This document shows positions 6,047 to 60,462 of a DNA stretch of 64,000 bases, piece by piece (the stretch's first letter is position 1; each line of letters opens with the position of its first letter). Made by a program: the position numbers and the translations under genes. The stretch comes from an uncultured Lachnospiraceae bacterium (GTDB taxonomy: Bacteria; Bacillota; Clostridia; Lachnospirales; Lachnospiraceae). The notes under the pieces are model-generated. The model was not told the origin of the DNA, did no database searches, and worked only from the letters and a program-made list of their open reading frames with translations. The stretch is taken from the NCBI GenBank assembly GCA_944384025.1, contig CALWRS010000002.1:62001-126000 (forward strand). Reading direction: 5' to 3'.

Positions 6047-6556
6047 ATGGAACCGTTTTTGCGTGTAGGCGTTTTTGCCAACACCCACGGAATTCATGGA
6101 GAAATCAAACTGTTTCCGACAACGGAAGATAAGGGGCGCTTTGTTAAGGGGCTGCCCCTTTGGTTCGATACCGGCAAAGAAAAGAAGCAGTTTGTCGTTT
6201 CCGGGGTGAAATACTTCAAAAACCTTGTCATTCTACGCTTTGAAGGGATAACGAACATTAACGAAATCGAGCCGTACAAAGGCTGCGACGTTTTGGTGGA
6301 TCGGGAACATGCGCTTTCATTAGAGGAAGACGAATATTTTATTTGCGATATTCTTGGCGCAGAAGTCGTTACACAGGAAGGCGAAACGCTTGGACGGCTG
6401 CGGGAAGTTATGCAGACCGGCGCAAACGACGTTTATGTAATTGATTTAAAAAACGGCAAGGAAGCGCTTTTTCCGGTAATTCCGGAGTGTGTAAAGGATG
6501 TTGACGTTTTAAACCGGAAGATTACGGTACATGTGATGCCGGGGTTAATGGAATAA
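6047..6556 (+). CDS. rimM: Ribosome maturation factor RimM
   Basis: RimM assists late 30S assembly, in particular maturation of the 16S rRNA head near bS16/uS19. The 169-residue product has the N-terminal RimM barrel starting LRVGVFANTHGIHGEIK and the C-terminal PRC barrel with DVYVIDLKNGKEALFPVI. Length is typical. The ATG directly follows the stop of the upstream ABC gene; a GGGA site lies in that gene's end. trmD follows 24 bases later by the start chosen here. Confidence 0.96.
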   Translation: MEPFLRVGVFANTHGIHGEIKLFPTTEDKGRFVKGLPLWFDTGKEKKQFVVSGVKYFKNLVILRFEGITNINEIEPYKGCDVLVDREHALSLEEDEYFICDILGAEVVTQEGETLGRLREVMQTGANDVYVIDLKNGKEALFPVIPECVKDVDVLNRKITVHVMPGLME

Positions 6557-6580
6557 GACAACGGATGGGTGGAGGCTACA

Positions 6581-7324
6581 GTGAATTTCTATGTTATGAC
6601 GCTGTTTCCGGAAATGATCTTAGAAGGGCTTTCCTACAGTATTTTAGGCCGCGCAAGAAGGGCGGGGCAGATTTCTGTGGAAGCGGTAAACATTCGAGAT
6701 TTTTCCGAAGATAAGCATAAGCATGTAGACGATTATCCTTATGGCGGCGGCGCCGGGATGGTAATGTCCTGCGAACCGATTGAAAAAACATACCGCTATC
6801 TTTGCGACAAGCGAAAACTGCGCTCGCGGCCAAGAGTTGTTTATCTGACGCCGCAGGGCAAAGTGTTTGACCAGCAGATGGCAAAGGAATTTGCGCAGGA
6901 AGAGGATTTGTTTTTTCTGTGCGGGCACTACGAAGGCGTGGATGAGCGCGTGCTGGACGCGATTGTAACGGATCGGGTCTCTATTGGCGACTATGTATTA
7001 TCCGGAGGAGAACTCGCCAGTATGGTTATGATTGATGCGATTTCCCGAATGGTGCCGGGCGTGTTGACAAACGAGGAAAGCAAGGATACGGAAAGTTTTG
7101 AAGGAAATCTTTTGGAATATCCGCAGTATACACGCCCGGAAGAATGGCAGGGGCGTCGCGTGCCGGAAGTGCTTTTAAGCGGGCATCACGCGAAGATTGA
7201 GCAGTGGCGGCGCGAGCAGTCCATTTTGCGGACATGGGAAACCCGCCCCGAACTGTTGGAAAAGGCTGCACTTAGCCAAAAGGAGCAGGAGTTCTTAGAA
7301 GGACGCAAGAAGCAACAGTCATGA
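6581..7324 (+). CDS. trmD: tRNA (guanine37-N1)-methyltransferase TrmD
   Basis: Transfers methyl from S-adenosylmethionine to G37 of tRNAs reading CNN and some GGN codons, preventing frameshifting. SPOUT-fold motifs are clear: MTLFPEM near the N terminus, YLTPQG, LCGHYEGVDERV and the knot loop GDYVLSGGELA. I chose the GTG at 6581 because it gives the family's usual N terminus (MNFYVMTLFPEM) and sits 5 bases after GGAGG; an in-frame GTG at 6569 would overlap that site. 247 residues. Confidence 0.97.
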   Translation: MNFYVMTLFPEMILEGLSYSILGRARRAGQISVEAVNIRDFSEDKHKHVDDYPYGGGAGMVMSCEPIEKTYRYLCDKRKLRSRPRVVYLTPQGKVFDQQMAKEFAQEEDLFFLCGHYEGVDERVLDAIVTDRVSIGDYVLSGGELASMVMIDAISRMVPGVLTNEESKDTESFEGNLLEYPQYTRPEEWQGRRVPEVLLSGHHAKIEQWRREQSILRTWETRPELLEKAALSQKEQEFLEGRKKQQS

Positions 7325-7372
7325 AAAAGAAACTCCACCAGACCAATCGCCCCTTTTTCCTGAAAAAAATCC

Positions 7373-7401
7373 TTGCATTTTGAAGTCGCTCATGGTACAA
7401 T
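7373..7401 (+). promoter_or_regulatory. SigA-type promoter for rplS
   Basis: TTGCAT, a 17-base spacer, then TACAAT. Transcription would start near 7408 and leave a leader of about 70 bases before rplS. Confidence 0.75.
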
Positions 7402-7408
7402 ATACATC

Positions 7409-7465
7409 CGTGAGACGCGGTGTTCCTCTGTACATTGGAGTAGTATGAATGCCGAGAATAGTTTT
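7409..7465 (+). ncRNA. Candidate L19 autoregulatory leader
   Basis: The rplS leader can form small stems: CCG/CGG around 7409-7421 and TCCTC/GGAGTA-like pairing around 7430-7445. Firmicute rplS genes are known to carry an L19 leader motif (Rfam family L19_leader). The position fits, but the match to the consensus was not tested. Confidence 0.35.
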
Positions 7466-37378: not shown

Positions 37379-38053
37379 ATGAAACAGTTTTTTTCGTGGG
37401 ACGGACCGCTGCTTCGGTTCTTTGATCAAGTCGGGAAAGTGGTCATTGCCTCTTTGTTGTGGCTTTTAAGCTCCGTTCCCGTCGTTACCATGGGACTTGC
37501 GAGCACAGCGCTGTATTACGCAGTTGTGAAATCCATCCGAAATGACAGAGATTATGTTTTGAGCCAGTTTTACGGTGCTTTGCGAAGAGAGTGGAAACAA
37601 GGGCTCCTTTTTGGCTGCCTGTACCTACTTGCCTTTGCCTTGCTGCTTTTCGATATGATTGCGTGGCGTGAGGAAGGGACGAAGAAAGGCATGTTCTTTT
37701 GCCTGCTGTGCGCAGCAGCCATTCTGCTTTTAGCAATTTCCGCCGTATACGTCTTTTCCCTGCTGTCCAGATTTGAAATGCAGTTTAAAGACGTTTTAAA
37801 AACAGCTTTTTTTCTAGAGTTCCGTTACCTGCCGTCTTCCATCGGCATCGGACTGATTTTGGGAGCTGTCTGCGGACTTTTATATATTTCTTCCTACACG
37901 GTGCTGTTTGCTCCCGGTGCCGCGTGTTTTCTCATCTCGTTTCTAACAGAAAAGATATATCAGAGTATCACGCCGACTCCCGAGGATGGTCAGCAGCAGT
38001 GGTATGACAAAAAAAGTAAGGAGGAGAACGATGCATATCAAGAAACTGTTTAA
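37379..38053 (+). CDS. YesL-like (DUF624) membrane protein
   Basis: A 224-residue integral membrane protein with about five hydrophobic segments, beginning MKQFFSWDGPLLRFFDQVG, the usual start of DUF624/YesL proteins (SWDGPLxR). Such proteins are encoded with carbohydrate ABC importers in Firmicutes and their role is unknown. First gene of the mannan run. ATG 37379 was chosen on this match and an AAGGAG 12 bases upstream; the frame is open farther back only in AT-rich leader. Its 3' end overlaps the next gene by 23 bases. Confidence 0.82.
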   Translation: MKQFFSWDGPLLRFFDQVGKVVIASLLWLLSSVPVVTMGLASTALYYAVVKSIRNDRDYVLSQFYGALRREWKQGLLFGCLYLLAFALLLFDMIAWREEGTKKGMFFCLLCAAAILLLAISAVYVFSLLSRFEMQFKDVLKTAFFLEFRYLPSSIGIGLILGAVCGLLYISSYTVLFAPGAACFLISFLTEKIYQSITPTPEDGQQQWYDKKSKEENDAYQETV

Positions 38054-41000
38054 AAAAGGAATCGTAATGCTTCTGGCGCTTTCCATGTTTTTGGAAACGG
38101 CTTCTCTTTGTTTTGCAGAAGGAGAGACCGCAGAAAACCCAACGGAAAATACGGAATCGTCCGAGACGGTTGTCGAGGAGGATGCGCCGTCTGCGCAAGA
38201 AGATACGCAAACGAGCGAGCCGTCCGAGCAGAAGACTCCTGTAGAAGATATGACCCTGGAGATGTACAAGGACATTCTTGGAACGTACAACATTGACGAG
38301 AACGTTTTGACTTACAAGGAATATTGCGAACGTTTCCCGGAAACTAAGACGGATGCGGTCATCACCATTCCTGCCAAAGACTATTACGCTGAAGCGACGG
38401 ACATGGAAGTTTCCGTTCAGGAAAACAGCGCATATACGCCGGTAGACGAAGACATGGCGCTTACAGGCTTAGACGAATCGCTTCTGACTGCGGACGACGG
38501 ATTCGTATCTTGGAAATTTACAGCCGAGCAAAGCGGATATTATTACATTTCCCTTACTTACTTCCCTGCACAAGGAAAAAATGCGGACATTGAGCGCGCG
38601 TTTTTTGTGGACGGGGAATTGCCATATGCGGAAATGACTGCGATTAAATTTTCCCGTATCTGGGTAAACGACATTACGTATAACAGTACAAACAAAGCTT
38701 GGGAGTGGAGCTCGGACAATCAGGGCAACCACCTAAAGCCTTCCCAGACAGAAGCGCCTGCATGGATTCATTCGTACCTGTACGACAGTAACGGTTACAT
38801 TTCGCATTGTCTTCCTGTCTACATAGAAGAAGGCGAGCACGTTCTGACGATGGTTTCCATCAAGGAACCGATGCTTCTTTACGGTATCCAAATGGATTAC
38901 GTCGGCTCGACAATCTCTTACGAAGAATACAAAAAACAGCACGACGCAGCCGGAGCGCAAAAGCTCTCCAATACGCGGATTGAAATTCAGGCGGAACAGG
39001 CCGTACGCAAATCTTCGCAGATGCTTTACCCGCAGCAGGATCAGTCCTCGCCGGCAATTTCTCCATACAGCCCGCGTTACCTTTTGAATAACGCAATCGG
39101 CGGAAATTCTTGGAGACTGGTTGGTCAGTGGATTGAGTGGGACATTTCCGTACCGGAAAGCGGATATTATAATCTGGCGCTTGCCGTTCGGCAAAACTTT
39201 AGCAAAGGTATTTACGTTTCAAGAAAAATATCGATTGACGGCGTAGTTCCTTTTGATGAATTTAATGCTTACGGATTCCAGTACGAATCCAACTGGCGGC
39301 AGGAAGTGCTTGGCGACGAAAACGGCGCTTTTGACATTTATCTGGAAGCCGGAGAGCATACGATTCGCATGGAAGTTGTATTGGGTGAATTTTCTACCAT
39401 TGTATCCGACGTGCAGCTGGCAGTAACGCAGTTAAATGCCATCTACCGCGAAATTATATGTATCACCAGTACCACGCCGGACAGCTGGAAAGACTACCAG
39501 ATCCGTCGCAACCTTCCGGAACTTCAGGAGCAGTGCATTGAAGTAAGAGACTTGCTTGACGATACGATCAAGCGGCTTCGCGCGTTAGTTGGCTCCGGAA
39601 GCGACAAAGAAACCGTGCTAATTACGATGCGGGATCAATTAAACGATATTATCGACGATCCCGAATATGTTGTTAAAATTGTTTCCTCTTTCCGCACGAA
39701 CATCCGTGCATGTGGAACGTGGATCACACAAGTAATCGAGCAGCCGCTGGCGTTAGATGCAATTTACCTTGTATCCGAAGAGTCGCAGCTTCCGGAAATG
39801 AAAGATTCTTGGTGGCAGAAGCTGCTGCATGAAATTAAACGGCTTTTCTACTCGTTTATTATTGACTACAACATGATCGGCGACGTATCCGAAGGCGGAA
39901 ACCAGACGCTAATTACGCTTTGGGTCGGTACCGGACGCGACCAGGCGAACGTTATTAAATCTATGCTGGATGAGACGTTTTCCACGCAGGCATATCTGGA
40001 CGAAAACGGAAAAGAGTATTATATCGGCGTTAACGTTATGCTTGTAGATATGAGCACGCTGCTTCAGGCAACGCTTGCCGGTTCCGGACCGGATGTGGCA
40101 ATCCAAGTTGGAAACGATGTGCCGATGAATTACGGACTGCGAAACGCTGTAGCGGATTTGTCGCAGTTTGAAGATTGTGAAGAAGTAATTGCTAACCGGT
40201 TCCGCGACAGCGCTATGGAAGCGTTCCGATTTACAGCAAACGGCCATACAGCAGTTTACGGACTGCCGGAGACGCAGACGTTTTCCATGATGTTCTACCG
40301 CAAAGACATTCTTAAAGAACTTGGTCTGGAGCTTCCTACAACGTGGGAAGAGATGAAAGTCGTTCTTACGCAGCTTAGTCAGAACAACATGGACCTTGGT
40401 ATGATGCCTACGGAAGCCAACTTCGCCATGATTCTCTACCAAAACGGCGGCGAATATTACAACACAGACGGATCGCAGTCCGCGCTTGATTCCGAAGAAG
40501 CGGTAACGGCATTCCGGAAGTTCACCGAGTTTTATACCGACTACAAGATGGATACGGTCACGTCCGTAGAAGAGCGGTTCCGTACCGGTGAAGCTCCGAT
40601 TATTATTACTGATTACACGTACTATAACACGCTTCAGGTATCTGCTCCGGACATTCAGGGACTTTGGGGAATGGCGGTCGTACCCGGAGAAGTACGAGTA
40701 GACGAGTACGGAAACGAATACATCGACAATACGGTAGCAAGCAGCGGTTCCGCCTGCGTTATTATGGAAGCCGCTAAGAACAAGCTGGCATGCTGGGAAT
40801 TTTTGAAATGGTGGACCAGTGCTGAGACGCAATACTTATACAGCAGCGAGATGGAATCGCTCATGGGAGCTTCCGCGCGTGTAGCTACCGCGAATATCCA
40901 AGCATTTAGCCTGATTCCATGGCCTACCGAAATTGCGGAAGTTTTGGAAGCACAGTTTGAAAACGTCCGCGGAATTCGGCAAGTGCCGGGAGGCTATTTC

Positions 41001-41141
41001 TCTTGGCGAAACGTAAACAATGCTTTCTACGCCGTTACGACGAAAACCGATTCGGCAACGCCTCGTGAGGAGCTGATGGATCGCGTTATCTACATCAACG
41101 ACGAGATAGCGTACAAGAGAAAAGAGTTTGGATTGGATTAG
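38031..41141 (+). CDS. Giant secreted CBM-like / extracellular solute-binding fusion protein
   Basis: 1036 residues from ATG 38031 (AAGGAGGAG upstream). Signal peptide 1-29, an acidic Ser/Glu/Thr linker to about 75, two beta-sandwich modules resembling carbohydrate-binding domains (about 110-290 and 312-470), a helical region (about 475-615), and a type 1 ABC solute-binding domain (about 624-1036, GSGPDVAIQVGNDVP, YGLPETQTF). The Cys at the signal peptide end is preceded by Ser-Leu, not a good lipobox, so anchoring is unclear. Permease genes follow directly, so it is probably the sugar receptor of that importer. Ordinary receptors have about 430 residues; the extra 600 suggest capture of polysaccharide at the surface. 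Confidence 0.85.
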   Translation: MHIKKLFKKGIVMLLALSMFLETASLCFAEGETAENPTENTESSETVVEEDAPSAQEDTQTSEPSEQKTPVEDMTLEMYKDILGTYNIDENVLTYKEYCERFPETKTDAVITIPAKDYYAEATDMEVSVQENSAYTPVDEDMALTGLDESLLTADDGFVSWKFTAEQSGYYYISLTYFPAQGKNADIERAFFVDGELPYAEMTAIKFSRIWVNDITYNSTNKAWEWSSDNQGNHLKPSQTEAPAWIHSYLYDSNGYISHCLPVYIEEGEHVLTMVSIKEPMLLYGIQMDYVGSTISYEEYKKQHDAAGAQKLSNTRIEIQAEQAVRKSSQMLYPQQDQSSPAISPYSPRYLLNNAIGGNSWRLVGQWIEWDISVPESGYYNLALAVRQNFSKGIYVSRKISIDGVVPFDEFNAYGFQYESNWRQEVLGDENGAFDIYLEAGEHTIRMEVVLGEFSTIVSDVQLAVTQLNAIYREIICITSTTPDSWKDYQIRRNLPELQEQCIEVRDLLDDTIKRLRALVGSGSDKETVLITMRDQLNDIIDDPEYVVKIVSSFRTNIRACGTWITQVIEQPLALDAIYLVSEESQLPEMKDSWWQKLLHEIKRLFYSFIIDYNMIGDVSEGGNQTLITLWVGTGRDQANVIKSMLDETFSTQAYLDENGKEYYIGVNVMLVDMSTLLQATLAGSGPDVAIQVGNDVPMNYGLRNAVADLSQFEDCEEVIANRFRDSAMEAFRFTANGHTAVYGLPETQTFSMMFYRKDILKELGLELPTTWEEMKVVLTQLSQNNMDLGMMPTEANFAMILYQNGGEYYNTDGSQSALDSEEAVTAFRKFTEFYTDYKMDTVTSVEERFRTGEAPIIITDYTYYNTLQVSAPDIQGLWGMAVVPGEVRVDEYGNEYIDNTVASSGSACVIMEAAKNKLACWEFLKWWTSAETQYLYSSEMESLMGASARVATANIQAFSLIPWPTEIAEVLEAQFENVRGIRQVPGGYFSWRNVNNAFYAVTTKTDSATPREELMDRVIYINDEIAYKRKEFGLD

Positions 41142-47794: not shown

Positions 47795-48709
47795 ATGAAG
47801 AAAAAAAAGCGGAGATTATCTCTCGCGCAGAAACGTGCGATTACCGGCTTTGTCTTTATCAGCCCTTGGCTGATCGGCTTCCTGATTTATTACGTGCGAA
47901 GCATATACATGACGGTTCAGTTCTCGCTGAGCGAAGTATCCCCTGCGGTAGGCGGTTACGAAGCAAAATTCGTAGGTCTGAAAAATTTAAAGTACATTTT
48001 TTTGGAGCACCCGCAATTCAACCAGCAGCTTGTTATTTCCATGCGCGACGTATTTATTGACGTACCGTTAATTATAATTTTCAGTTTGCTGATGGCGATG
48101 CTTCTAAACCAGAAGTTCGTTGGAAGAACCATCGTTCGAGCCGTGTTCTTCCTGCCGGTTATTATGGGTTCTGCCGCAATTACAACGGCAATCGACAACG
48201 CGCGTTCCGCAATGGTAGGCGGCGTAAGTTCTACGGCTGCGGATATTGTAGACGCCTCTTCGTCCTCTGTAAACGTCGATTATTACTTGGCGCTGTTTAA
48301 GGACATCGGTTTGCCGTCGGGCATTCTGGATTACGTAGTCGGCGCAGTTGAGCGTCTTTCGGACGTTGTTTCGCTTTCCGGCGTGCAAATCGTTATCTTT
48401 ATCGCCGCCCTGCAGTCGATTTCTGGCTCGCTTTACGAAGTTGCCAAAATCGAGGGCGCTACCGGTTACGAGACATTTTGGAAAGTAACGTTCCCGATGG
48501 TAATGCCGCACATTATTACTTGCCTCGTTTACACGGTTGTGGATTCTTTTGCAAACAGTGAAGTTGTGTCGCTTTCCTACGACGAGATTTTCTCTAACAA
48601 CCACTACGATTACGGAAGCGCGATGAGTCTTGTCAGCACCATTGTCGTCTGCGCCGTACTGTTCGCAGTCGTCGCAGTCATACAAAAGCGAACGTTTTAC
48701 TACAACTAG
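47795..48709 (+). CDS. Carbohydrate ABC importer permease (MalF/UgpA type), second pair
   Basis: 304 residues with six membrane helices and an additional segment of about 70 residues (about 140-215, Ser-rich) between helices 3 and 4. The contact loop is EVAKIEGATGYETFWKVTFP. GGAGGGGAG site after the DUF5696 gene. It pairs with the next gene. Confidence 0.88.
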   Translation: MKKKKRRLSLAQKRAITGFVFISPWLIGFLIYYVRSIYMTVQFSLSEVSPAVGGYEAKFVGLKNLKYIFLEHPQFNQQLVISMRDVFIDVPLIIIFSLLMAMLLNQKFVGRTIVRAVFFLPVIMGSAAITTAIDNARSAMVGGVSSTAADIVDASSSSVNVDYYLALFKDIGLPSGILDYVVGAVERLSDVVSLSGVQIVIFIAALQSISGSLYEVAKIEGATGYETFWKVTFPMVMPHIITCLVYTVVDSFANSEVVSLSYDEIFSNNHYDYGSAMSLVSTIVVCAVLFAVVAVIQKRTFYYN

Positions 48710-48726
48710 GAAAGGAGGGCACAAAA

Positions 48727-49674
48727 ATGATTACGATTGCAAAAGCAAAGCTTCGTTACCAGGAACTGCAAAACGATCAGTTCTTCCAGAACGACAAAAG
48801 GCGTGCGCTCAAGTATTTCAAGAAATTTTTGTTCTTCCTGTTCCGGTTTTTTATCCTGCTGGGCGTGTCCTACATTATTTTGAGCCCGCTCATTCGAATG
48901 GTGGCGCAGTCCTTCTTTTCGGATACGGATTTGACAAACCCGATGGTATACATTATACCGACGCAGCCGACGCTTGAGAAATACGTTGCCGCATGGAAAG
49001 TTTTACCGTATCCAAAGACGATTCTGATGTCTCTTGGCAACGATATCGGGCTGATGCTGATTCAGATATTTATCTGTTCCATGGTAGGATACGGATTTGC
49101 GCGGTTTAATTTTCCGCTGAAAGGCTTTTTGTTTGGCTGCGTAGTTATAATGATCGTCATCCCGACGCATGCGATTATGCTGCCGTTATACTTGACGTTT
49201 ACGCAGACAGTTTCGCTCTACGGAACGGCTGGTCCTTTTTATCTGCTTACCATTTTCGGAAGCGGTCTTCGTTCCGGGTTGTACATTTACCTTTTCAACC
49301 AGTTCTTCCGAGGGCTGCCAAAGGAAATTGAAGAAGCGGCGTTTGTAGACGGAGCGGGAAGCTTTTATACGTACTTCCGCATCATGCTTGTTAACGCAAT
49401 GCCATCGGTTATTACCGTGGCGGTGTTCTCGCTTGTATGGCAGTACAACGACTTGTTTTACTCAAGACTTTTTGGTCTCTCAAGTGTTGTGTCCATGCGA
49501 ATTAGCGCCCTTTCTCAGGAGGTCGGAGCGATTTATGAAATTGAAAACCCTGCGTATCTGACCATGTACCTGTATGCCGGAGTCGTTTTAATCTTAATTC
49601 CGGTCATCTTGATCTACTGCGTATTGCAGAAGTTCTTCATCGAAGGTGTGGAACGAAGCGGTATTGTAGGTTAG
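48727..49674 (+). CDS. Carbohydrate ABC importer permease (MalG/UgpE type), second pair
   Basis: 315 residues, six membrane helices, contact loop EAAFVDGAGSFYTYFRIMLV. AAAGGAGG site 17 bases after its partner. The two lipoproteins downstream are its likely receptors. No ATPase gene is present. Confidence 0.88.
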   Translation: MITIAKAKLRYQELQNDQFFQNDKRRALKYFKKFLFFLFRFFILLGVSYIILSPLIRMVAQSFFSDTDLTNPMVYIIPTQPTLEKYVAAWKVLPYPKTILMSLGNDIGLMLIQIFICSMVGYGFARFNFPLKGFLFGCVVIMIVIPTHAIMLPLYLTFTQTVSLYGTAGPFYLLTIFGSGLRSGLYIYLFNQFFRGLPKEIEEAAFVDGAGSFYTYFRIMLVNAMPSVITVAVFSLVWQYNDLFYSRLFGLSSVVSMRISALSQEVGAIYEIENPAYLTMYLYAGVVLILIPVILIYCVLQKFFIEGVERSGIVG

Positions 49675-49754: not shown

Positions 49755-51032
49755 ATGTTCAAGAAATTTCTTTCATTATTTCTTGTCGGTGCGCTTTCGG
49801 TTGCTTTGATTGCGTGCGGCGAGAAAGACGAACCGAGCGGAAGCGACGCAACGTCTCCGTCGGCACAGCCGACTGCTTCCGCAACGAATACGCCGACGCC
49901 GACCCCGGCCGATCGGACGGACCTTCCGGAAGATACGTCGACGTATGTCAGCTTCGAAGATGGAAAGATGGACTTTGCTGCGATTGCATACAGCAATGCA
50001 TCCTGTGACCTTTCTTCGTCTTTGAGTTTAAAGGACTTTGCCGGATCGAAGGGGCTGGTTGCAACCTCGCCGGTCAGCGATAATATCTTTTCAGGCGTTC
50101 ATCCGTATGTTGCCATTGATATTGTTGCCCTGCTTGGCGATAAGGTAACGGAGGTTGCCACCATTCAGTACGACGTAGGAATTGATTTCAAGGGCGGCGC
50201 ATTCCAGGCCGTTTCCGGATCGATTTTGATGTACGCAGGGGAAGCAAACGTAGAAACATCGCAGTCCTGGTCTGTTTTCCTTGAGGAGCAGAATCCGAAG
50301 GTTTACACGGTAAACGTTCCGGAAGGTGGCTTTGTTACCGGTGCGAAAAACTACATCTGCTTTACCGTTATTGACGGCAACCCGATTGCATCGAGCGACT
50401 TTGACCTTGTTATCGACAATCTGATTTTCCGTGATAAGGACGGCAACGTTCTTGCTCCGGATACATCCGCTGGATTTACATCCGTGGAAGGCATTAACGA
50501 AAGCTTCTGGCTGAGTCTGGAATGGGACAACGCTACAGTACAGCCGGAAAACGAGAAAATTGTTTTAACAGGCGTTCAGACCGGCAGCGGCTGGTGGCCG
50601 GATCCAGGCAACACCATGAGCTTTGTAGAAGGCGTTGCTGAATCGAATGCTTACGGCGCACAGCTTACACCGGACGACTTTAAGCCGGGCATGGTTATGA
50701 CCATTTACTACGAGCAGCCGTTTGAGCATCTTCCGGAAAATGCTTACCAGATTCCTTATCTTCGTGCACAGGCTTGGGCAACAGAGGATGGAAGCTTTGC
50801 AGGCGGAAACGCGGATGTTTGGACGTTTACGGACGATTATCTGGAAACCGATCGCAGAAACAACGCGCGCACGATTGTACAGTACACGTACGAAGAAATT
50901 GCAGACGCGTTAAATACCGGCTTTGGCACAACGGGAGAAGACTGGAAGACGTATTGCAGCTTCCTTGGCGTTGCCGATCGCGGCGCTGTGATTAATATCT
51001 ACAAAGTAACCATTGGCGAATTGCCTGAGTAA
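49755..51032 (+). CDS. Lipoprotein with carbohydrate-binding-like beta-sandwich domains
   Basis: 425 residues: lipobox LIAC near residue 21, a Ser/Thr/Pro linker (about 25-55), then two beta-sandwich regions (about 60-220 and 240-420). Stretches such as VSFEDGKMDF, DLVIDNLIF and WWPDPGN resemble carbohydrate-binding modules of mannan-active enzymes, but no family is certain. No catalytic motif seen. Placed between permeases and the solute-binding lipoprotein, it probably captures mannan or manno-oligosaccharides at the cell surface. Confidence 0.7.
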   Translation: MFKKFLSLFLVGALSVALIACGEKDEPSGSDATSPSAQPTASATNTPTPTPADRTDLPEDTSTYVSFEDGKMDFAAIAYSNASCDLSSSLSLKDFAGSKGLVATSPVSDNIFSGVHPYVAIDIVALLGDKVTEVATIQYDVGIDFKGGAFQAVSGSILMYAGEANVETSQSWSVFLEEQNPKVYTVNVPEGGFVTGAKNYICFTVIDGNPIASSDFDLVIDNLIFRDKDGNVLAPDTSAGFTSVEGINESFWLSLEWDNATVQPENEKIVLTGVQTGSGWWPDPGNTMSFVEGVAESNAYGAQLTPDDFKPGMVMTIYYEQPFEHLPENAYQIPYLRAQAWATEDGSFAGGNADVWTFTDDYLETDRRNNARTIVQYTYEEIADALNTGFGTTGEDWKTYCSFLGVADRGAVINIYKVTIGELPE

Positions 51033-51046
51033 AAAGGAGAATGAAG

Positions 51047-52450
51047 ATGAAAAAACTTTTGGCTTTGATGTTGGTTCTCTCCATGGTATTTGCTATGGTA
51101 GCCTGCGGCGAGCAGAAAGATGGAGAAGCAACCGCAACACCGGGTGTGACTGTAGAGCCGACCAGCCCGCTTGCACACGCGGAAAAACGTACCATTAATA
51201 TTGGTACTTGGTATGAGCAGTATTATACTTCTGCGCATCAGTCGGTAAACGACAACCCGAACGTTAACAACTTGGAAGAAGCACAGATGATGCTTGACAA
51301 CATGAGAGCGATTGAGCGTCGCTACAACATTGAGCTGTACTTCAAGAACCTGACCTGGAACGGTGTTATTGAGTCGATTAACACCTCGATTATGGCGGGT
51401 TCCCCGAACTGCGAAATTTATCAGGTAGATTTCCAGTTTGGTCTCCCTGCAGTGCTTGCCGGATATGCAGAAGCACTGGAAGACTTCCTGACGGAAGAAG
51501 AAATGAACAACGAAGCATTCCAAGGTTTGCAGCTTCCTGGTTCCGATAAGACATATCTGTTCTACGGAAAAGCAAAGAACACAAACGGATACCCTCTGGG
51601 ATACAACAAAGCGCTCATTGAAGCAGCCAACCTTGAAGATCCGTACGAACTCTACCTTAGAGGCGAGTGGACTTGGTCGAAGTGGATGGAATACATGGAG
51701 CAGCTGACCGATACGCAGACCGGACAGTGGGGATACCGCGGCGCTTGGACGAACACCTTTACACAGCTTCTGTTCTCGAACGGCGCTTCCGTAGCATCTC
51801 CGGCTCCGAATGAAAACGGAGAAATCGTAGAAGGTCTGAGCTCTCAGGCAACGACGAACGTGCTAAACTTCATGAAGGAAATTTACGTTGACAAGGGTGT
51901 ATCCTTCTGGAATGCAGATTGTGACGCTGACTGGAACAGCAACGTATATGCATTTGGCGAAGGCAATGTAGCGTTCTTCCCGGCTGCATGCTGGATTATT
52001 CAGTCTGCTGACCCGAACCACCAGATTGACCTTGGAATCGTTCCTTGGCCGACCGGTCCGGACGTAGAAGAAGGACAGAAGGTTCCGCAGTACAACCAGA
52101 CGCTTGGTAACTTCTACATGATTCCGAAGGGAATTGACGATCCGAAGCAGATCTACTACGTAATCCGCGATTACACCGCATGGTACGGCGATGACCTTAC
52201 CCTTCGGGATAAGACGGAATGGGCAGAAGAGTGGATGGCAGGAAGCAAGAACAGCGAGACAAACTTCGACGTTCTTTGCTCGATGACCGACGAAACTTCT
52301 GACTTCACGGTTGAACTTTGGGATCAGGTAAAACTTTCGGATGAGTACAATATCCGTGGTCTGATTGAAGGTACTTGCGAAGTTGCACAGGTAATTGAAA
52401 CGAACAAACAGCTTGTTCAGGATTATCTGGACACGAACTTTGGAAATTAA
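51047..52450 (+). CDS. Extracellular solute-binding lipoprotein (family 1)
   Basis: 467 residues. Signal peptide with lipobox MVAC (Cys about residue 20), then a family 1 sugar-binding fold (INIGTWYEQYY, WTWSKWMEYMEQLTD, FFPAACWI). ATG 51047 gives 7 bases after GGAG; an ATG at 51041 is too close to it. Receptor for the second permease pair, most likely for manno-oligosaccharides given the GH26 and GH130 genes downstream. The codons here look highly optimised, and a strong hairpin follows the stop, both fitting high expression. Confidence 0.87.
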   Translation: MKKLLALMLVLSMVFAMVACGEQKDGEATATPGVTVEPTSPLAHAEKRTINIGTWYEQYYTSAHQSVNDNPNVNNLEEAQMMLDNMRAIERRYNIELYFKNLTWNGVIESINTSIMAGSPNCEIYQVDFQFGLPAVLAGYAEALEDFLTEEEMNNEAFQGLQLPGSDKTYLFYGKAKNTNGYPLGYNKALIEAANLEDPYELYLRGEWTWSKWMEYMEQLTDTQTGQWGYRGAWTNTFTQLLFSNGASVASPAPNENGEIVEGLSSQATTNVLNFMKEIYVDKGVSFWNADCDADWNSNVYAFGEGNVAFFPAACWIIQSADPNHQIDLGIVPWPTGPDVEEGQKVPQYNQTLGNFYMIPKGIDDPKQIYYVIRDYTAWYGDDLTLRDKTEWAEEWMAGSKNSETNFDVLCSMTDETSDFTVELWDQVKLSDEYNIRGLIEGTCEVAQVIETNKQLVQDYLDTNFGN

Positions 52451-52494: not shown

Positions 52495-52519
52495 GAGTAT
52501 TGTGATGGAGAAAAAAACA

Positions 52520-54172
52520 ATGAAAAAGTCTTTTTGGCTTTTTTGCCTGCTATTCATTTCGGTAGCGCTTGGGGGATGTAAGGAAGACGCACCGGAAACA
52601 CCGGCAGCGGAAATTAGCGTTTCCGTTACGCTGCAAGCAACGATGACGCCGTCGCCCACCGCTGCTTTGGATAAAGTCGAATACACGCCAAAGGAAGACC
52701 GGTTGGAAGGACTGACGTTATCCGCGGCTGAAGATAAATACGAGTATGTCCCTGACGAAAATTCGGGTTCTTACGATGTGAACTACTCCCTGACCGTACA
52801 GGCAGAGTCGGGCGAGCAGGCGGGAGCGGCGAGCGTGGAAAACAGCCTGCAGGGGTACGAAGGAAGCGGTTACGTCTTTTTGCGCGATGCGTCTACAAAC
52901 GACAGCGCTACCGTGCAAATTTCGGTTCCTGCGGACGGATTTTACTCTTTGAATTTCCGGATTGCCACGCCTATGGGAGAAAAATCTAACGCAATTTTAC
53001 TGGACGGTGTAAAAATTGGCGAAGTTTCCTGCCCGAACAACAACGCATACGCTTCGTATCCGTTAGAAGGTATTTATATTACCCACGGAGAGCATGATCT
53101 GACAATTTCGGCTGTATGGGGCTGGATTTATTGGGATTTGGTTACGATATCCGGTGAAGAACAGCCGGAAGCAGAAGAAAAAGAATTGACAACGGCAGTT
53201 TTGGTAGACCCGTATGCAACGCTTCGCACAAAGATGCTCTACCAGTTTATCTGCGACATTGACGGTCTTTACACGCTTTCCGGACAATACGCGCAGACAG
53301 GGCTTAGCAGCAACGAGTTTTCGGCGATTGAAGAGGCGACCGGGCGAACGCCTGCCATTTTAGGCGTAGACCTTATCGATTATTCGCCTTCCCGCGTCGT
53401 GCACGGAATGCCGGACAACGTTGTTCAGCGCGCGATTAATTTTTACAAAAAAGAAGGCGGGATTGTTACGGTATCCTGGCACTGGAACGCGCCTGCGCAG
53501 TACATCCTAGAAGGTGCCGAGTGGTGGGACGGATTCCGCAGTGAAGCAGTGGATATGGATTTGCCTGCAATTATGAACGGCAGCGACCCCGAAGGCTACG
53601 AAGCATTAATGACGGATATTGACTCAATTGCGTTTTATCTCAAGCAGATTGCCGATGAGGACGTGCCGATTTTATGGAGACCTCTGCACGAGGCCAGCGG
53701 CGGCTGGTTCTGGTGGGGGAACTACGGAGCGGATACATATTGCAAACTTTGGGTAGCGATGTACGACCGGTTAGTGAATTATCATGGCATCCACAATCTT
53801 ATCTGGGTATGGAACGGACAAGACGGTGACTGGTACCCGGGAGACGCTTATGTGGACATGATTGGCGAGGACATTTACCCGGGAAACCGTGTTTATTCAT
53901 CGCAGTCCATTAAGTACAACGAGGCGGCCGCTTATACGGAAAAGGAAATGCCAATCGTACTTTCGGAAAACGGCTGTTTGGCAGACCCTGATTTGATGAT
54001 TCGGGACAATGCCCGCTGGACGTGGTTTTGCGTATGGTCCGGCGAATTTGTCGTCGATGGCGCAGAACTGTCGGAAGAATACAACGAAGCGGTGATGTGG
54101 GACAAAGTTTATAATCACCGTTCGGTTATCACGCTTGACGAGCTGCCGGATTTGACGACGTATGGTCAATAA
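52520..54172 (+). CDS. Cell-surface GH26 beta-mannanase with CBM35-like module
   Basis: 550 residues: lipoprotein signal with LGGC (Cys20), a CBM35-like sandwich (about 78-212), and a GH26 catalytic barrel (about 225-545). Acid/base E391 in RPLHEASGGWFWWG and nucleophile E483 in VLSENG are both present. It cuts beta-1,4-mannan or glucomannan outside the cell to feed the importers. ATG 52520 has GGAG 9 bases upstream; an in-frame ATG at 52505 with GGAG 7 bases upstream is an alternative that adds five residues. Confidence 0.93.
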   Translation: MKKSFWLFCLLFISVALGGCKEDAPETPAAEISVSVTLQATMTPSPTAALDKVEYTPKEDRLEGLTLSAAEDKYEYVPDENSGSYDVNYSLTVQAESGEQAGAASVENSLQGYEGSGYVFLRDASTNDSATVQISVPADGFYSLNFRIATPMGEKSNAILLDGVKIGEVSCPNNNAYASYPLEGIYITHGEHDLTISAVWGWIYWDLVTISGEEQPEAEEKELTTAVLVDPYATLRTKMLYQFICDIDGLYTLSGQYAQTGLSSNEFSAIEEATGRTPAILGVDLIDYSPSRVVHGMPDNVVQRAINFYKKEGGIVTVSWHWNAPAQYILEGAEWWDGFRSEAVDMDLPAIMNGSDPEGYEALMTDIDSIAFYLKQIADEDVPILWRPLHEASGGWFWWGNYGADTYCKLWVAMYDRLVNYHGIHNLIWVWNGQDGDWYPGDAYVDMIGEDIYPGNRVYSSQSIKYNEAAAYTEKEMPIVLSENGCLADPDLMIRDNARWTWFCVWSGEFVVDGAELSEEYNEAVMWDKVYNHRSVITLDELPDLTTYGQ

Positions 54173-54202: not shown

Positions 54203-55225
54203 ATGAGCAATGTAAAAATTTATGGTCAAGAGCTTGCGAACATGCCTTGGCAGGAAAAACCGGCGGATGCGGTTGGCCCGGTTTGGAGATACTCTAAAAA
54301 CCCTATTATTGACCGTAATCCGCTGCCGGGCGTAGCCCGTATTTTTAACAGCGCCGTTGTGCCGTGGGAAGACGGATTTATCGGCGTATTCCGCGGAGAA
54401 CAGGTGAACGGTGTGCCGCACATTTATTTGGGACGGAGCAAAGACGGAATTCATTGGACGTATGACACGCAGAAGATTCCGTTTGTCAACGAAAAAGGCG
54501 AGCCGTTTATGCCTCGTTACGCTTACGATCCGCGTCTTGTGCAGGTGGAAGATACATACTACATTATCTGGTGTACCGATTTTTATGGCGCGGCGCTTGG
54601 CTTAGCGAAGACAAAGGACTTTAAGACGTTTGTGCGCCTTGACAATCCGTTCCTTCCGTTTAACCGAAACGGCGTTCTTTTTCCAAGAAAACTAAACGGA
54701 AACTTCTGCCTGCTTTCCCGCCCGTCCGACAGCGGTCACACGCCTTTTGGAGACGTTTTCATCAGTGAGAGCCCGGATTTGGTTTATTGGGGCAAGCACA
54801 AGCATGTTATGACAAGAGGCTACAATCAATGGTGGCAGTCGCTGAAAATCGGCGGCGGCGCCGCTCCGATTGAGACAAGCGAAGGATGGCTTCTGTTTTA
54901 TCACGGCGTTACCGGTACATGCAACGGATACGTTTACAGTATGGGCGCTTGCATTTTGGATAAAGAGGAGCCAAGCCGCGTGAAGTATCGCTCCGAAAAC
55001 TTTGTGCTTACGCCGGAGACGTGGTACGAAGAGAGGGGCTTTGTAGCAAACGTTATCTTCCCGGTATCGACGCTTTGCGACGCAAAGACCGGAAGAATCG
55101 CTATTTACTACGGCGCAGCGGACAGCTACGTTGGACTAGCGTTTACAACGGTGGACGAGATTGTAGCGTACGTAAAAGAAAATCATGTAGAAAACGGAGA
55201 CGACGGACAAATTGGAATCATGTAA
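54203..55225 (+). CDS. GH130 beta-1,4-manno-oligosaccharide phosphorylase
   Basis: 340 residues, five-bladed propeller phosphorylase. YDPRL holds the single catalytic Asp (D109), and WRYSKNPII and ARIFNSAVVP are family features. Length and motifs resemble RaMP2-type enzymes that release mannose 1-phosphate from the non-reducing end of manno-oligosaccharides using phosphate. No signal peptide, so cytoplasmic. With the fusion protein downstream it completes intracellular phosphorolysis. AAAGGAG site. Confidence 0.9.
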   Translation: MSNVKIYGQELANMPWQEKPADAVGPVWRYSKNPIIDRNPLPGVARIFNSAVVPWEDGFIGVFRGEQVNGVPHIYLGRSKDGIHWTYDTQKIPFVNEKGEPFMPRYAYDPRLVQVEDTYYIIWCTDFYGAALGLAKTKDFKTFVRLDNPFLPFNRNGVLFPRKLNGNFCLLSRPSDSGHTPFGDVFISESPDLVYWGKHKHVMTRGYNQWWQSLKIGGGAAPIETSEGWLLFYHGVTGTCNGYVYSMGACILDKEEPSRVKYRSENFVLTPETWYEERGFVANVIFPVSTLCDAKTGRIAIYYGAADSYVGLAFTTVDEIVAYVKENHVENGDDGQIGIM

Positions 55226-56345
55226 TCCATATTTGCGGCAATGTGCGCTCGCGCGCGGCATTGTGCATTTGGGAAACTTGGAACGATTTTACAGAGTATT
55301 TCAGAAGGCGCAGCAGGGGAAGCCGATTACCGTCGGCTTCCTCGGCGGTTCTATTACGCAGGATTCTGCCGCCAGCCGGCACGAAAACTGCTACGCCTAT
55401 AGAACTTATCTTTGGTGGAAAAACAAGTTTCCGGAAAGTGAAATTCGTTACGTAAACGCCGGAATCGGCGCGACGACTTCGCAGTTTGGCGCAGCGCGGG
55501 TGGAAGAAGATTTGCTTTGCTACGAGCCGGACGTCGTATTTTGCGAATTTAGCGTCAACGATCCGAGCACGCCTTTTTTTCAGGAATGTTTTGAAGGCCT
55601 TGTGCGAAAAATTTTATACAGCCGGACGCAGCCGGCTCTGCTTGTTTTTCATAACGTTGTATACGACACTGGAGAAAATGCGCAGGACATTCACAGCGCT
55701 GTATCGATTCGCTACGATGTGCCAACCATCAGCATGAAAGACAGCATTTTTGAAGAAATTCGGCTGGGATACGTACAGCGGGAGAAGATTACGCAGGATA
55801 ACCTGCACCCAAACGACCTTGGACACAGCTACGTCGCGCAAGTTTTGACCCATGCGCTTACGCGTATTTACGAAACATGTGCGAAGACGCCACAGGAAGT
55901 TTGCAAACCGCTTGCAAAAATCTCCCCAATGACACAAAATCGATACGAGCAATCTTTCCGGGTACGCGGCCGGGACTGCTTGCAGCAGATGGAAGGATTT
56001 AGTGAAGATTTGCAGGAGCAAAACGGCGTAAGAGACGTGTTTCGGCGCGGATTTTTTAGCAGCTGTGAGGACGCGTTTTTAACGTTTCGTGTGACGGCCA
56101 AAAAGATAAGCGTTCAATACCGAAAGACCGTTCATCATCCGGCGCCAACGGCTGCCGTATTTGTGGACGGAAGGGAAGCGGCGCAGTTAAAAGCAGACTT
56201 TGAAGAAACGTGGGGCGATTGCTTATATTTACAGGATGTATGGGAGGAAGAAGAAGCGAAAGAGCATACGGTTACAATCCGCATCACGAACGTTTTTGCG
56301 CCTTCCTGCACGCCGTTTTATTTTGTTTCCCTAATTTGCTGCTAA
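55212..56345 (+). CDS. SGNH/GDSL esterase, probable acetyl-mannan esterase
   Basis: 377 residues. The four SGNH blocks are clear: S47 in GGSITQ, Gly block GIGATTS, N116 in SVNDPS, and D196/H199 in [10 protein letters not shown]-terminal beta-sandwich (about 270-377) may bind sugar. No signal peptide. Context suggests removal of acetyl groups from imported manno-oligosaccharides, similar in role to the CE17 enzyme of Roseburia mannan loci; this is inferred. The TTG start overlaps the GH130 gene by 14 bases; a TTG at 55233 would be a later alternative. Confidence 0.82.
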
Positions 56346-56376
56346 GCATAAGAAAAACGCAGAAGTGAGGATGATT

Positions 56377-58713
56377 ATGATTTCAATAAAAAAGCAGGCC
56401 GAAGACCAGCTGCGCAATGTAATTTTGCCCTTTTGGGAAAATTTAAAAGACGATGTTTACGGTGGATTCTACGGCTATATGGATTATGATTTGCGCCTTA
56501 ACAAACAGGCAGACAAAGGCTGTATTTTAAATAGCCGGATTCTTTGGTTTTTTAGTAACGCGGTCAAAGTGCTTTCGGATTCGTCGCTGCGGCCCTTTGC
56601 AGATCATGCGTATTATTTTTTGCGGGATTACTGCTTTGATAAAGAAAACGGGGGCGTTTACTGGTCCCTTACATACGACGGAAAGCCAAGCGATACGACA
56701 AAACACACGTACAACCAGGCGTTTGCCATTTATGCACTGTCGTCTTATTACGATTTAACCAAAGACGAAGAGGCGCTTTCGCTGGCACTTTCGCTTCACC
56801 GGACAATGGAAGAGCAAATGACGGACGAATACGGCTATATGGAGTCGTTTACGCAAAATTTTCAGCCGGAAGAAAACGACAAACTCTCGGAAAACGGCGT
56901 GATTGCACAAAAGACGATGAATACGCTTTTGCATGTGCTGGAAGCGTATACGGAGCTCTACCGCGTTGCGAAAATGAAAACCGTGCAGGAGCGGTTGCAA
57001 TTCATTTTGACGCAAATTGAGACGAAGGTATATAATCCGATTTTAAAGCGGCAGGAAGTATTTTTTGACGCGCAGATGCATTCGATTCTCGATTTGCATT
57101 CGTATGGGCACGATATAGAAACCGCGTGGCTTGTGGACCGCACGCTTGAAGTGCTAAACGACCCGATGATGACGGCGCGTATTTCGCCCATCACAAAGGC
57201 GCTTACGCAAAAAATTTATGAACGCGCTTACGAGAACCATTCGCTTTTAAACGAATGCGAAAAGGGGAAAGACGATAAGACGCGCATTTGGTGGGTGCAG
57301 GCGGAAGCCGTAATCGGCTTTTTAAACGGATACCAGAAAAATCCGGGAGCCGTGCATTATTTGGACGCTTCGCTTGACATTCTTCAAATGATTCAGGAAA
57401 AATTGACGGATCACAGAGAAGGCTCGGAATGGTTTATGTCCTTAGACGAAGAGCTTCGTCCGATTTCCGGAAAGCCGATTGTTGAGCCGTGGAAGTGCCC
57501 GTATCATAATGGCAGAATGTGCTTAGAGCTGCTTACAAGGGACGTCATCCATCCCAAATACTACGAAGAGCTGCAAAAACAGGAGACGCTCTTTACGCGA
57601 AGAAACGTCCCGCTTGACGACTACAACGGTATATACACGCGCTACCGGCATCCGGTTTTAACAAGAGAGATGGTCCCGCTGTTTTGGAAGTATGACCTGA
57701 ATTTAGAAACCAATCCATTTTTTATGGAGCGCCTTTCCGTAAACGCAACGATGAACTCGGGAGCCATTAAATTAAACGGCAAGTATTACCTTGTCGTGCG
57801 TACCGAAGGCAATGACCGCAAGTCGTTTTTTGCGGTAGCGCAAAGCGATAACGGGATAGACGGCTTCCGTTTTTGGGATTATCCGATTCTTTTGCCGGAT
57901 ACGAATCCCGAAGAAACTAATGTATACGATATGCGTCTGACGCAGCACGAAGACGGCTATATATACGGTGTCTTCTGCTCCGAAAGCAAAGATACGAGCG
58001 TGCAGGATTTGTCTGCGGCCGTAGCGGCAGCCGGCATTGTGCGCACAAAAGACTTAAAGACGTGGGAGCGTCTCCCGAATTTAAAGACGCTTCGTTCCCC
58101 GCAGCAAAGAAACGTTGTTTTGCACCCGGAGTTTGTAAACGGAAAGTATGCGTTTTATACCCGCCCGATGGACGATTTTATCGACACCGGTTCGGGCGGC
58201 GGCATCGGCTTTGGTCTGTGCGACGATATTACCAATGCGGTCATTGACGAGGAAGTCATTACAAGCAAGCGGAAATATCATACGATTACCGAAGCGAAAA
58301 ACGGCGCAGGCGCAGTGCCTATTAAGTCGGAAAGAGGGTGGCTGCACATTGCCCACGGCGTCCGCAATACGGCGGCGGGGCTTCGATATGTGCTGTATGC
58401 GTTCGCGACGGATTTGTCCGATCCAAGCAAAGTGATTGCGGAACCTTCCGGAATGCTTCTTGGGCCGCATGTAGGAGAGCGGGTAGGCGACGTTTCAAAC
58501 GTAGTTTTCACGAACGGAGCGATTGTTGACGACAACGGGGACGTGTTGATTTATTACGCATCTTCGGATACGCGAATGCACGTTGCGAAGACGACGCTGG
58601 CACGATTGGAGGATTATATTTTCAATACGCCGGAAGATCCGTTGCGTTCGGTCTTGTGTGTTCGGCAAAGATGTGCTTTAATAGAAGAGAATAAGAAGCT
58701 GCTGCAACAATAA
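56377..58713 (+). CDS. Fusion: mannobiose/cellobiose 2-epimerase + GH130 mannosylglucose phosphorylase
   Basis: 778 residues in one open frame. Residues 1 to about 400 are an AGE-type alpha/alpha barrel with the 2-epimerase residues R54, H186, H245 and E248 (GHDIE) and H377 (CPYHNG), matching R52, H184, H243, E246 and H374 of Ruminococcus albus cellobiose 2-epimerase. From about 410 to 778 it is a GH130 propeller with NVYDMRLT (catalytic D518), the 4-O-beta-mannosyl-glucose phosphorylase type. The pair turns mannobiose into mannosyl-glucose and then into mannose 1-phosphate plus glucose. ATG 56377 is 6 bases after GAGG. Elsewhere these are normally two genes. Cytoplasmic. Confidence 0.93.
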
Positions 58714-58737: not shown

Positions 58738-60462
58738 ATGGATTATAAGGAAGCTTATCGCTTTTGGTGTACCGACCCCTATTTTGACGAAAAGACAAAA
58801 GAGGAGCTTAGAGCTATCGCACAGGAGGAAACGGAAATTCGCGAGCGCTTTTACCGCGACCTGGAATTTGGAACGGGCGGACTGCGCGGAATTATCGGCG
58901 CGGGCACAAACCGCATGAACCTTTATACCGTTCGAAAAGCGACGCAAGGGCTGGCCAACTTTATCATCAAAGAAGGAGGACAGGAGCGCGGGGTAGCAAT
59001 TGCCTATGACTCCCGCAACATGTCTGTGGAGTTTAGTGAGGAAGCTGCGCTTTGCCTTTGTGCAAACGGGATTAAAACGTACCGCTTTGAATCTCTTCGT
59101 CCTACGCCGGAACTTTCGTTTGCCCTGCGGGAACTTGGCTGTATTGCCGGAATTGTTGTAACGGCAAGCCATAACCCGGCGGAATACAACGGCTACAAAG
59201 TGTATTGGGAAGACGGCGCACAAGTTACGCCGCCAAAGGACAGCCAGATTATTGACGAAGTGAACGCCGTAACGGACTGGAACACGGTAAAGATTATGGA
59301 CCGAGCTGCTGCGGAGGCTGCAGGGCTGTATCACGTAATCGGAAAAGACATTGACGACCGGTATATGCAGGCGCTTAAAAAGCTCGTTCTTCAGCCGGAC
59401 GTTGTGCGCGAAGTTGGAAAGACCATGAAAGTCGTTTACACACCGCTTCACGGAACAGGAAACGTTCCAGTTCGCCGAATTTTAAAAGAAATCGGCTTAG
59501 AGCAGGTGTTCGTCGTTCCCGAGCAGGAACTTCCGGACGGAAATTTCCCAACGGTTGCGAGCCCGAACCCGGAAAACAAAAGCGCGTTTGAGATGGCGCT
59601 TGCGCTGGCACAAAAAGAAGGCGCGGAGCTTGTGCTTGCGACAGACCCGGATGCAGACCGGCTTGGCGTATACGCAAAAGACTCCAAAACCGGAGAATAT
59701 ATGCCGTTTACCGGAAATATGTCCGGAATGCTGATTTGCGAATACGTGCTGAGCCAGAAACAGGCGCTTGGAAAAATTGCGAAAGACGGATTTATCGTAA
59801 AAACCATCGTATCGACCAATATGGCGGACAAAGTCGCCGAAGCGTACGGCGTAGAGCTTAAAGAGTGTCTGACCGGCTTTAAGTTTATTGGAGAATTGAT
59901 CAAGCTGGCCGAAGAATCCGGCAAGGGAACGTTTGAATTTGGCTTTGAAGAAAGCTACGGCTGCTTAGTTGGCACACACGCCAGAGACAAAGACGCGGTT
60001 GTTGCCGTTATGATGCTTTGCGAAGCGGCGGCTTACTACAAGACCCAGGGACTGACGCTGTGGGATCAGATGATGCGCATTTACGAGAAGTACGGCTTCT
60101 TCCGCGAAGGTCTGGAAACGCTGACGCTTAAAGGTTACGAGGGAGCGCAAAAGATTAAGAGTATGATGGAAGACATCCGGAACAACCCGCCAAAGACGTT
60201 GGGCGGCTATCCGGTAACGATGTTCCGCGATTACGCAAAAGGCGTGATTACCGACCTTTCCGACGGCAGTACGCATCCGACCGGACTACGCACGTCAAAC
60301 GTGCTGTATTTTGACCTAAGCGACGACGCATGGGCATGTGTGCGTCCTTCCGGAACCGAACCAAAGATTAAGTTCTACATGGGCGTAAAGGGCAGCAGCT
60401 TTGAAGATGCAGACAAAAAGCTGAAGGAATTAAACGAAGCTTTAATGGAACTTGCAAAGTAA
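58738..60462 (+). CDS. Alpha-D-phosphohexomutase (phosphomannomutase/phosphoglucomutase)
   Basis: 574 residues with the phosphoserine loop TASHNPAEYNG, metal loop TDPDADRLG, sugar-binding GFEESYG and phosphate-binding RPSGTEPK. Length resembles PgcA/Pgm2-type enzymes. As last gene of the mannan run it most likely converts mannose 1-phosphate from the two GH130 units to mannose 6-phosphate; glucose 1-phosphate is also possible. AGGAGG site 24 bases after the fusion gene. Confidence 0.93.
   Translation: MDYKEAYRFWCTDPYFDEKTKEELRAIAQEETEIRERFYRDLEFGTGGLRGIIGAGTNRMNLYTVRKATQGLANFIIKEGGQERGVAIAYDSRNMSVEFSEEAALCLCANGIKTYRFESLRPTPELSFALRELGCIAGIVVTASHNPAEYNGYKVYWEDGAQVTPPKDSQIIDEVNAVTDWNTVKIMDRAAAEAAGLYHVIGKDIDDRYMQALKKLVLQPDVVREVGKTMKVVYTPLHGTGNVPVRRILKEIGLEQVFVVPEQELPDGNFPTVASPNPENKSAFEMALALAQKEGAELVLATDPDADRLGVYAKDSKTGEYMPFTGNMSGMLICEYVLSQKQALGKIAKDGFIVKTIVSTNMADKVAEAYGVELKECLTGFKFIGELIKLAEESGKGTFEFGFEESYGCLVGTHARDKDAVVAVMMLCEAAAYYKTQGLTLWDQMMRIYEKYGFFREGLETLTLKGYEGAQKIKSMMEDIRNNPPKTLGGYPVTMFRDYAKGVITDLSDGSTHPTGLRTSNVLYFDLSDDAWACVRPSGTEPKIKFYMGVKGSSFEDADKKLKELNEALMELAK

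Follow-up and report, generated by a model that had tools for sequence, protein, structure and literature searches.

A predicted bifunctional mannobiose 2-epimerase and mannosylglucose phosphorylase encoded by a single gene in a β-mannan locus of an uncultured Lachnospiraceae bacterium

The stretch of DNA considered here (the window, 64,000 nucleotides of a contig of an uncultured Lachnospiraceae bacterium) contains between positions 47795 and 60462 a β-mannan utilisation locus of the Roseburia type, with a GH26 enzyme, an ABC transporter, two GH130 proteins, an esterase, a 2-epimerase and a phosphomutase (Table 1). The epimerase and one of the two GH130 proteins are encoded by a single gene, with which this work is concerned. 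In another part of the window, at 37986-41141, lies an ORF of 1051 residues, whose solute-binding-protein domain is confined to the C-terminal part (approximately residues 670-955) and whose long N-terminal part has no match in Pfam.

Table 1. Genes of the β-mannan locus and parts of the fused protein (positions in the window)
Feature	Position	Strand	Remarks
Two ABC permeases	47795..49674	+	Assigned by Pfam
Two ORFs with lipoprotein-like starts, putatively sugar-binding	49755-51032, 51041-52450		No Pfam match
GH26 β-mannanase with CBM35	52505..54172	+	N-terminus resembles a lipoprotein signal (by eye)
Second GH130 protein, GH130_2-like by context (predicted mannooligosaccharide phosphorylase, would yield mannobiose)	54203..55225	+
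GDSL esterase, probably a mannan deacetylase	55212..56345	+	31 bases 5' of the fusion
Fused mannobiose/cellobiose 2-epimerase – 4-O-β-D-mannosyl-D-glucose phosphorylase (predicted)	56377..58713	+	778 aa
Epimerase half (AGE family), residues 1-389	56377..57543	+	R54, H186, H245, E248, H377
Junction V390-I391, without linker	57544..57549	+	From structure-chain alignments and comparison with split relative L071
Phosphorylase half (GH130_1-like), residues 391-778	57547..58713	+	D518 in NVYDMRLT
Phosphoglucomutase/phosphomannomutase, probable mannose 1-phosphate to mannose 6-phosphate step	58738..60462	+	24 bases 3' of the fusion

According to the preliminary description of this DNA, one uninterrupted frame carries a full AGE-type 2-epimerase and a full GH130 phosphorylase, and our analysis bears this out: there is no stop between the two domains of the ORF, and a domain search finds both PF07221 (residues 30-362, 93 bits against a Pfam cut-off of 23.4) and PF04041 (residues 458-744, 78 bits against a cut-off of 26). 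The likely start is the ATG at 56377, with a GAGG that ends six bases upstream, and the stop codon occupies 58711-58713; a GTG at 56365 is an alternative start that would add four residues and give a protein of 782 aa. By eye, the N-terminus of the fusion carries no signal. It is the sole PF07221 protein found in its genome, and two more places in the genome that encode GH130 (one of them the second GH130 of the operon) score merely 74 and 67 bits against it.

The best solved relative of the fusion is 5ay9, a 4-O-β-mannosyl-glucose phosphorylase, which matches residues 391-776 with 623.9 bits, while 3was, the same phosphorylase from Bacteroides fragilis, scores 532.4 bits (aligned from residue 397 of the query) and the cellobiose 2-epimerase 3vw5 matches residues 9-390 with 407.5 bits. 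Since the epimerase match ends at residue 390 and the phosphorylase match begins at 391, the two proteins meet without a linker. The scores of 5ay9 and 3was, compared to 73.2 bits for RaMP2 (5ayd) from GH130_2, place the C-terminal half in GH130_1. The residues singled out in the preliminary description are all present, and R54, H186, H245, E248 and H377 are invariant across 25 aligned intact epimerases. H186, H245 and H377 align with positions 184, 243 and 374 of 3vw5, which we take to be the structure of RaCE, the cellobiose 2-epimerase of Ruminococcus albus; R54 and E248 presumably are the Arg and Glu catalytic partners of these histidines. D518 aligns with position 131 of 3was and is preceded by Y517. 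The catalytic histidines of RaCE are His184, His243 and His374 (PMC13281645), and Asp131 is the invariant catalytic Asp of the B. fragilis enzyme (PMC4599007), hence the histidines and the aspartate of the fusion match catalytic positions. A Tyr instead of Glu next to the catalytic Asp separates GH130 subfamilies 1 and 2 from other GH130 members (PMC4599007), and the fusion has the Tyr. The source organisms of 5ay9 and 3was are R. albus and B. fragilis, respectively (table in PMC8950772). Neither half reaches the cut-off of an NCBIfam equivalog: the fusion obtains 278.9 of 800 bits for celb_epim_EpiA (NF041848), which places it in the same broad family and outside that equivalog group, and 101.9 of 550 bits for BtaManbiosPhlase, so that the assignment of exact substrates is based on the nearest solved relatives and on the context.

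A fused gene in a single contig may have a trivial explanation, namely that an error of sequencing or assembly deleted a stop codon or a spacer, and the fact that the two genes are separate in most relatives would agree with it. Against it, the full-length fusion is found in four of the 22 genomes of the genus (the window's own, G014, G004 and G003), the latter three belonging to separately assembled species whose proteins share 86, 81 and 75% identity with that of the window, and all four have the same junction, R-D-(V/L)-(I/V)-H-P-K-Y-Y. Another genus, g321, comprises four species with the fusion, including one (G596) with a single-contig chromosome. The preliminary description had named read coverage as a guard against an assembly join; the same junction in three other separately assembled species excludes such a join, and we regard an artefact of this kind as practically impossible. 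As to the remaining genomes of the genus, one (G013) contains a decayed form, to which we return below, and 17 have no full-length match.

The frequency of AGE-GH130 fusions, which the preliminary description proposed to survey, was estimated from overlapping genome surveys of the family (397), order (392), class (391) and phylum (348), all at E 1e-100 or better. Among 117 phosphorylase-bearing loci (phosphorylase matches at E 1e-100 or better from the family and order surveys; 118 genomes counted by hand), 94 show a separate epimerase gene directly upstream and 8 carry the fusion, where neighbours are defined by less than 300 bases between the domain matches, the incomplete gene of G495, which lies at the edge of its contig, is left out, and G286, whose epimerase half is cut by a contig end, is scored as fused. 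A recount with slightly different limits gave 93 separate pairs instead of 94. Of the 103 loci with both enzymes inside the flank, 102 have the epimerase and the phosphorylase side by side. A separate set of 104 distinct phosphorylase loci, cleared of identical phosphorylases and restricted to matches above 400 bits and pieces of at least 330 residues, comprises 90 split loci (with more than 500 bases between the genes in three of them), 7 fused ones and 7 without an epimerase match.

Fusions in a single ORF were found in the surveys in the window's own genome and in G341, G596, G657, G712, G690, G286 and G462, the last of which comes from another family than the window's, and the named record L043 is fused as well. 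The fusions are found in five lineages, all from one bacterial order, and the view of the fusion as a one-off has to be abandoned. Around 35 relatives were considered as full-length fusions, most of which turned out on inspection to be separate genes; long open frames in G353 (821 aa), G208 (829 aa), G284 (844 aa), G229 (812 aa) and G108 (868 aa) and a frame of 880 aa in G643 were rejected as well, as they correspond to separate ORFs. Full-length matches from the class and phylum surveys that lie outside the order (G1021, G928, G866 and G1320) contain stops and are likewise separate ORFs. A plasmid search returned nine records with both parts, in which the genes are separate wherever they are annotated. 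One of them, a plasmid record of Treponema saccharophilum (NZ_AP025289.1:395604-397985), contains an adjoining epimerase and phosphorylase with 63.5% identity to the fusion from the window, annotated as two genes; a transfer is a possible explanation of its presence in a spirochaete.

Fusions that involve other partners were also encountered. A mannosylglucose phosphorylase is fused to a CE2-type esterase in a protein of 744 aa (L145/L225; L145:2546-4777 from G285, a single-contig chromosome) and to the phosphomutase that acts after it in a protein of 951 aa (L167/L295; L167:3213-6065 from G710). Epimerases with a C-terminal GH26 mannanase domain, of 710 and 733 aa, are encoded in L165:2099-4228 (G677) and L166:1237-3435 (G697), two genomes that have no phosphorylase match and are outside the 117-locus count. 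Finally, a DeoC/LacD-like aldolase domain precedes an epimerase in one frame of 718 aa (L164:3115-5268 from G433).

The evolutionary history of the fusion was inferred from two trees, on which the number of changes of the "fused" label cannot separate gain from loss. In the phosphorylase tree (124 rows) the label needs five changes, compared to a mean of 11.6 after shuffling, and the starred branches force two of them. In the tree of both halves (40 rows), which includes all but one of the 11 intact fused rows from the larger tree and 30 split rows picked by hand, and omits both the distant row L161 of G462 and the decayed row of G013, the label needs four changes, three of them forced by starred branches. 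If the 10 fusions from the window's family that entered the test are made to share one origin, the resulting tree is rejected (p-AU 5.3e-8); a joint origin for g321 and the genus of the window obtains a p-AU of 0.058 and hence is not rejected. According to these trees, the fusion arose more than once within one order, with five events as the simplest count, if the fusions represent gains.

The junctions differ between lineages: the distance from the Cys of NGRMC to the His of HP is 9 residues in the window, 10 in G341, 12 in L043 and 27 in G690. The linker of G690 still has an ATG after a GGAGGT that resembles an old ribosome-binding site, now translated, so that the phosphorylase alone might still be started from this codon; inspection of the junction in the window revealed no start of this type. 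In the split relative L071, the frame of the phosphorylase has its start at a TTG, and the residues after it (IHPKYYEEL) are identical to those that come after V390 in the fusion. The domain matches of 93 separate pairs are divided by a median of 22 bases. Fifteen of these pairs lie in one frame (5 abutting with a single stop, 10 otherwise) and 78 do not. Since few separate pairs share a frame, fusion usually needs a deletion in the spacer and a change of frame in addition to the loss of a stop. The idea that the usual route to fusion is "one stop away" was discarded, as the 29 of 90 split loci that suggested it reflect an effect of hit ranking, and only 5 of 93 pairs in the survey sample are of this type.

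Substitution rates were compared between fused relatives. For G341 and G712, dN/dS by the NG86 method is 0.125 for the epimerase and 0.064 for the phosphorylase, at dS of 0.23-0.24, and the YN00 method gives 0.160 and 0.075, respectively; for the window's own fusion and that of G014 the values are 0.062 and 0.027, at a saturated dS above 1.6. Altogether 14 comparisons were made, with YN00 values in 3 and NG86 dS in 8 of them. Judged by these ratios, both halves of the fusion are under constraint.

We propose, with a probability of about 0.85, that the fusion is real and works in the cytoplasm as a bifunctional enzyme of β-mannan breakdown, and that it arose by repeated loss of the spacer between back-to-back genes of an operon. 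The N-terminal half would convert the mannose at the reducing end of β-1,4-mannobiose to glucose, giving mannosylglucose, the C-terminal half would then split the latter by phosphorolysis into mannose 1-phosphate and glucose, and the adjoining mutase would take up mannose 1-phosphate. The short spacer, from the stop codon of one gene to the start codon of the other, would have been lost more than once within one order. The 1:1 stoichiometry stated in the preliminary description is a necessary consequence of the fusion and, together with co-localisation, would be its sure effect.

It is conceivable that the fusion is nearly neutral, i.e. that a spacer was lost in a tightly packed operon and each enzyme functions just as it did when separate, in which case channelling would be absent and any selected benefit would be limited to co-expression. 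The near-universal adjacency of the two genes (102 of 103 loci), the fusions that other neighbours (mutase, CE2 esterase, GH26 partners) undergo now and then, and the decay of the epimerase half in one congener all agree with such a scenario, while the recurrence in five lineages, the persistence across four species in each of two genera, and the fact that fusing takes more than a lost stop (78 of 93 split pairs are out of frame) argue against it. Fusions of the pair (8 of 102) may be more frequent than those of other neighbours, for which the count is 1 of 112 (p 0.015) or, once the CE2 fusion is included, 2 of 113 (p 0.050); if lineages are counted, the comparison is 5 versus 1 (p 0.10) or 5 versus 2 (p 0.26). 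We give the nearly neutral scenario a little less than an even chance.

The preliminary description suggested that the fusion channels the product of an unfavourable epimerisation to phosphorolysis. In such a scenario the tether would position the active sites so that mannosylglucose is handed directly to the phosphorylase. The direction of the equilibrium assumed in the preliminary description is probably reversed. In the conversion of lactose to epilactose by a cellobiose 2-epimerase, epilactose reaches only 30.6% at equilibrium (PMC12006067), which indicates that the disaccharide ending in glucose is favoured, and by analogy the conversion of mannobiose to mannosylglucose is probably downhill; in addition, RiMep is reported to work in both directions (PMC6385246). 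A reversible and probably downhill epimerisation has scant need of channelling, and the spacing at the junction, which varies from 9 to 27 residues among lineages, also speaks against it. Thus, even though the fused enzymes catalyse consecutive steps and the same pair is fused in several lineages, we consider channelling improbable.

For the bifunctional enzyme that we propose, the place of attachment may be of consequence. The phosphorylase of B. fragilis assembles into a hexamer through its N- and C-terminal helices (PMC4599007). In the fusion the epimerase would be tethered to the N-terminal segment of the phosphorylase, the counterpart of one of these hexamer-forming helices. In this context the decayed relative in G013 (L147:7237-9165; the same sequence in L068, approximately 5530-7455) deserves attention. 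Its phosphorylase is 82% identical to that of the window, retains the catalytic Asp, and shares its frame with 254 residues that represent a shrunken epimerase (hhalign probability of 97.2 and E of 3e-11 against 25 epimerases; 44.3 bits in BLASTP). This relic retains none of R54, H186, H245, E248 and H377 and is no longer matched by PF07221, and a search of the genome (one assembly, 98% complete) brought up no further PF07221 protein. The genome has no GH26 match either, compared to two such matches in each of the four congeners with an intact fusion; it retains the second GH130 (86%), the mutase (82%), the esterase (53%) and an adjoining mannose 6-phosphate isomerase. We infer that the supply of mannobiose was lost in this lineage and that the epimerase decayed as a result. 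Changes that break the frame would not have been tolerated during this decay, since the phosphorylase of G013 lacks an independent start. A bolder extension, which we find rather doubtful, is that fusion onto the oligomerisation helix would create a phosphorylase oligomer studded with epimerases and lock the two genes together; after loss of the mannobiose supply (no GH26, as in G013) the epimerase could not be dropped, and it would decay in frame to a non-catalytic cap, perhaps needed for folding or assembly.

The closest described counterparts of the fusion are two separate proteins of Roseburia intestinalis, RiMep and RiGH130_1, which are co-transcribed from the mannan utilisation locus MULL, catalyse the same two steps and have similar operon partners (PMC6385246); in this respect the preliminary description, according to which the described pathway uses separate enzymes, was correct. 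The mannan genes of R. intestinalis are split over two loci (PMC6385246), whereas in the window they form one stretch. Separate enzymes were described also for R. hominis and Faecalibacterium prausnitzii (PMC9784577, PMC8262883). The nearest relatives with a solved structure, the R. albus cellobiose 2-epimerase (3vw5) for the epimerase half and RaMP1 (5ay9, listed as a trimer in the table of PMC8950772) for the phosphorylase half, are likewise separate proteins, and BF0772 of B. fragilis (3was), in spite of belonging to the same phosphorylase family with Asp131 as the equivalent of D518, is a separate protein in which the N- and C-terminal helices are free (PMC4599007). On the other hand, the same bacterial family has a known two-enzyme fusion in one of its mannan loci, namely RhGH1-M6P of R. 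hominis, albeit one made of other domains, in which GH1 is joined to a mannose 6-phosphate isomerase (PMC9784577), and a bifunctional glucosidase/phosphomannose isomerase is in print (PMC7478625). In the accessible portions of the open-access literature, to which the search was confined, we found no description of the epimerase–phosphorylase fusion; what turned up as fused there were His tags, a cohesin fusion named in the title of a reference, and fused genes of the histidine pathway. As fusions of other enzymes of the mannan pathway are in print, it should be regarded as a variant of a known theme.

A natural fusion of consecutive enzymes of gut fibre degradation, accompanied by split relatives and by a decayed one, offers a ready test of what such a fusion changes, be it flux, stoichiometry or nothing. 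It may also serve as a catalyst that links mannobiose and mannose 1-phosphate within one protein. For the annotation of mannan loci, it means that gene counts can overlook one of the two enzymes.
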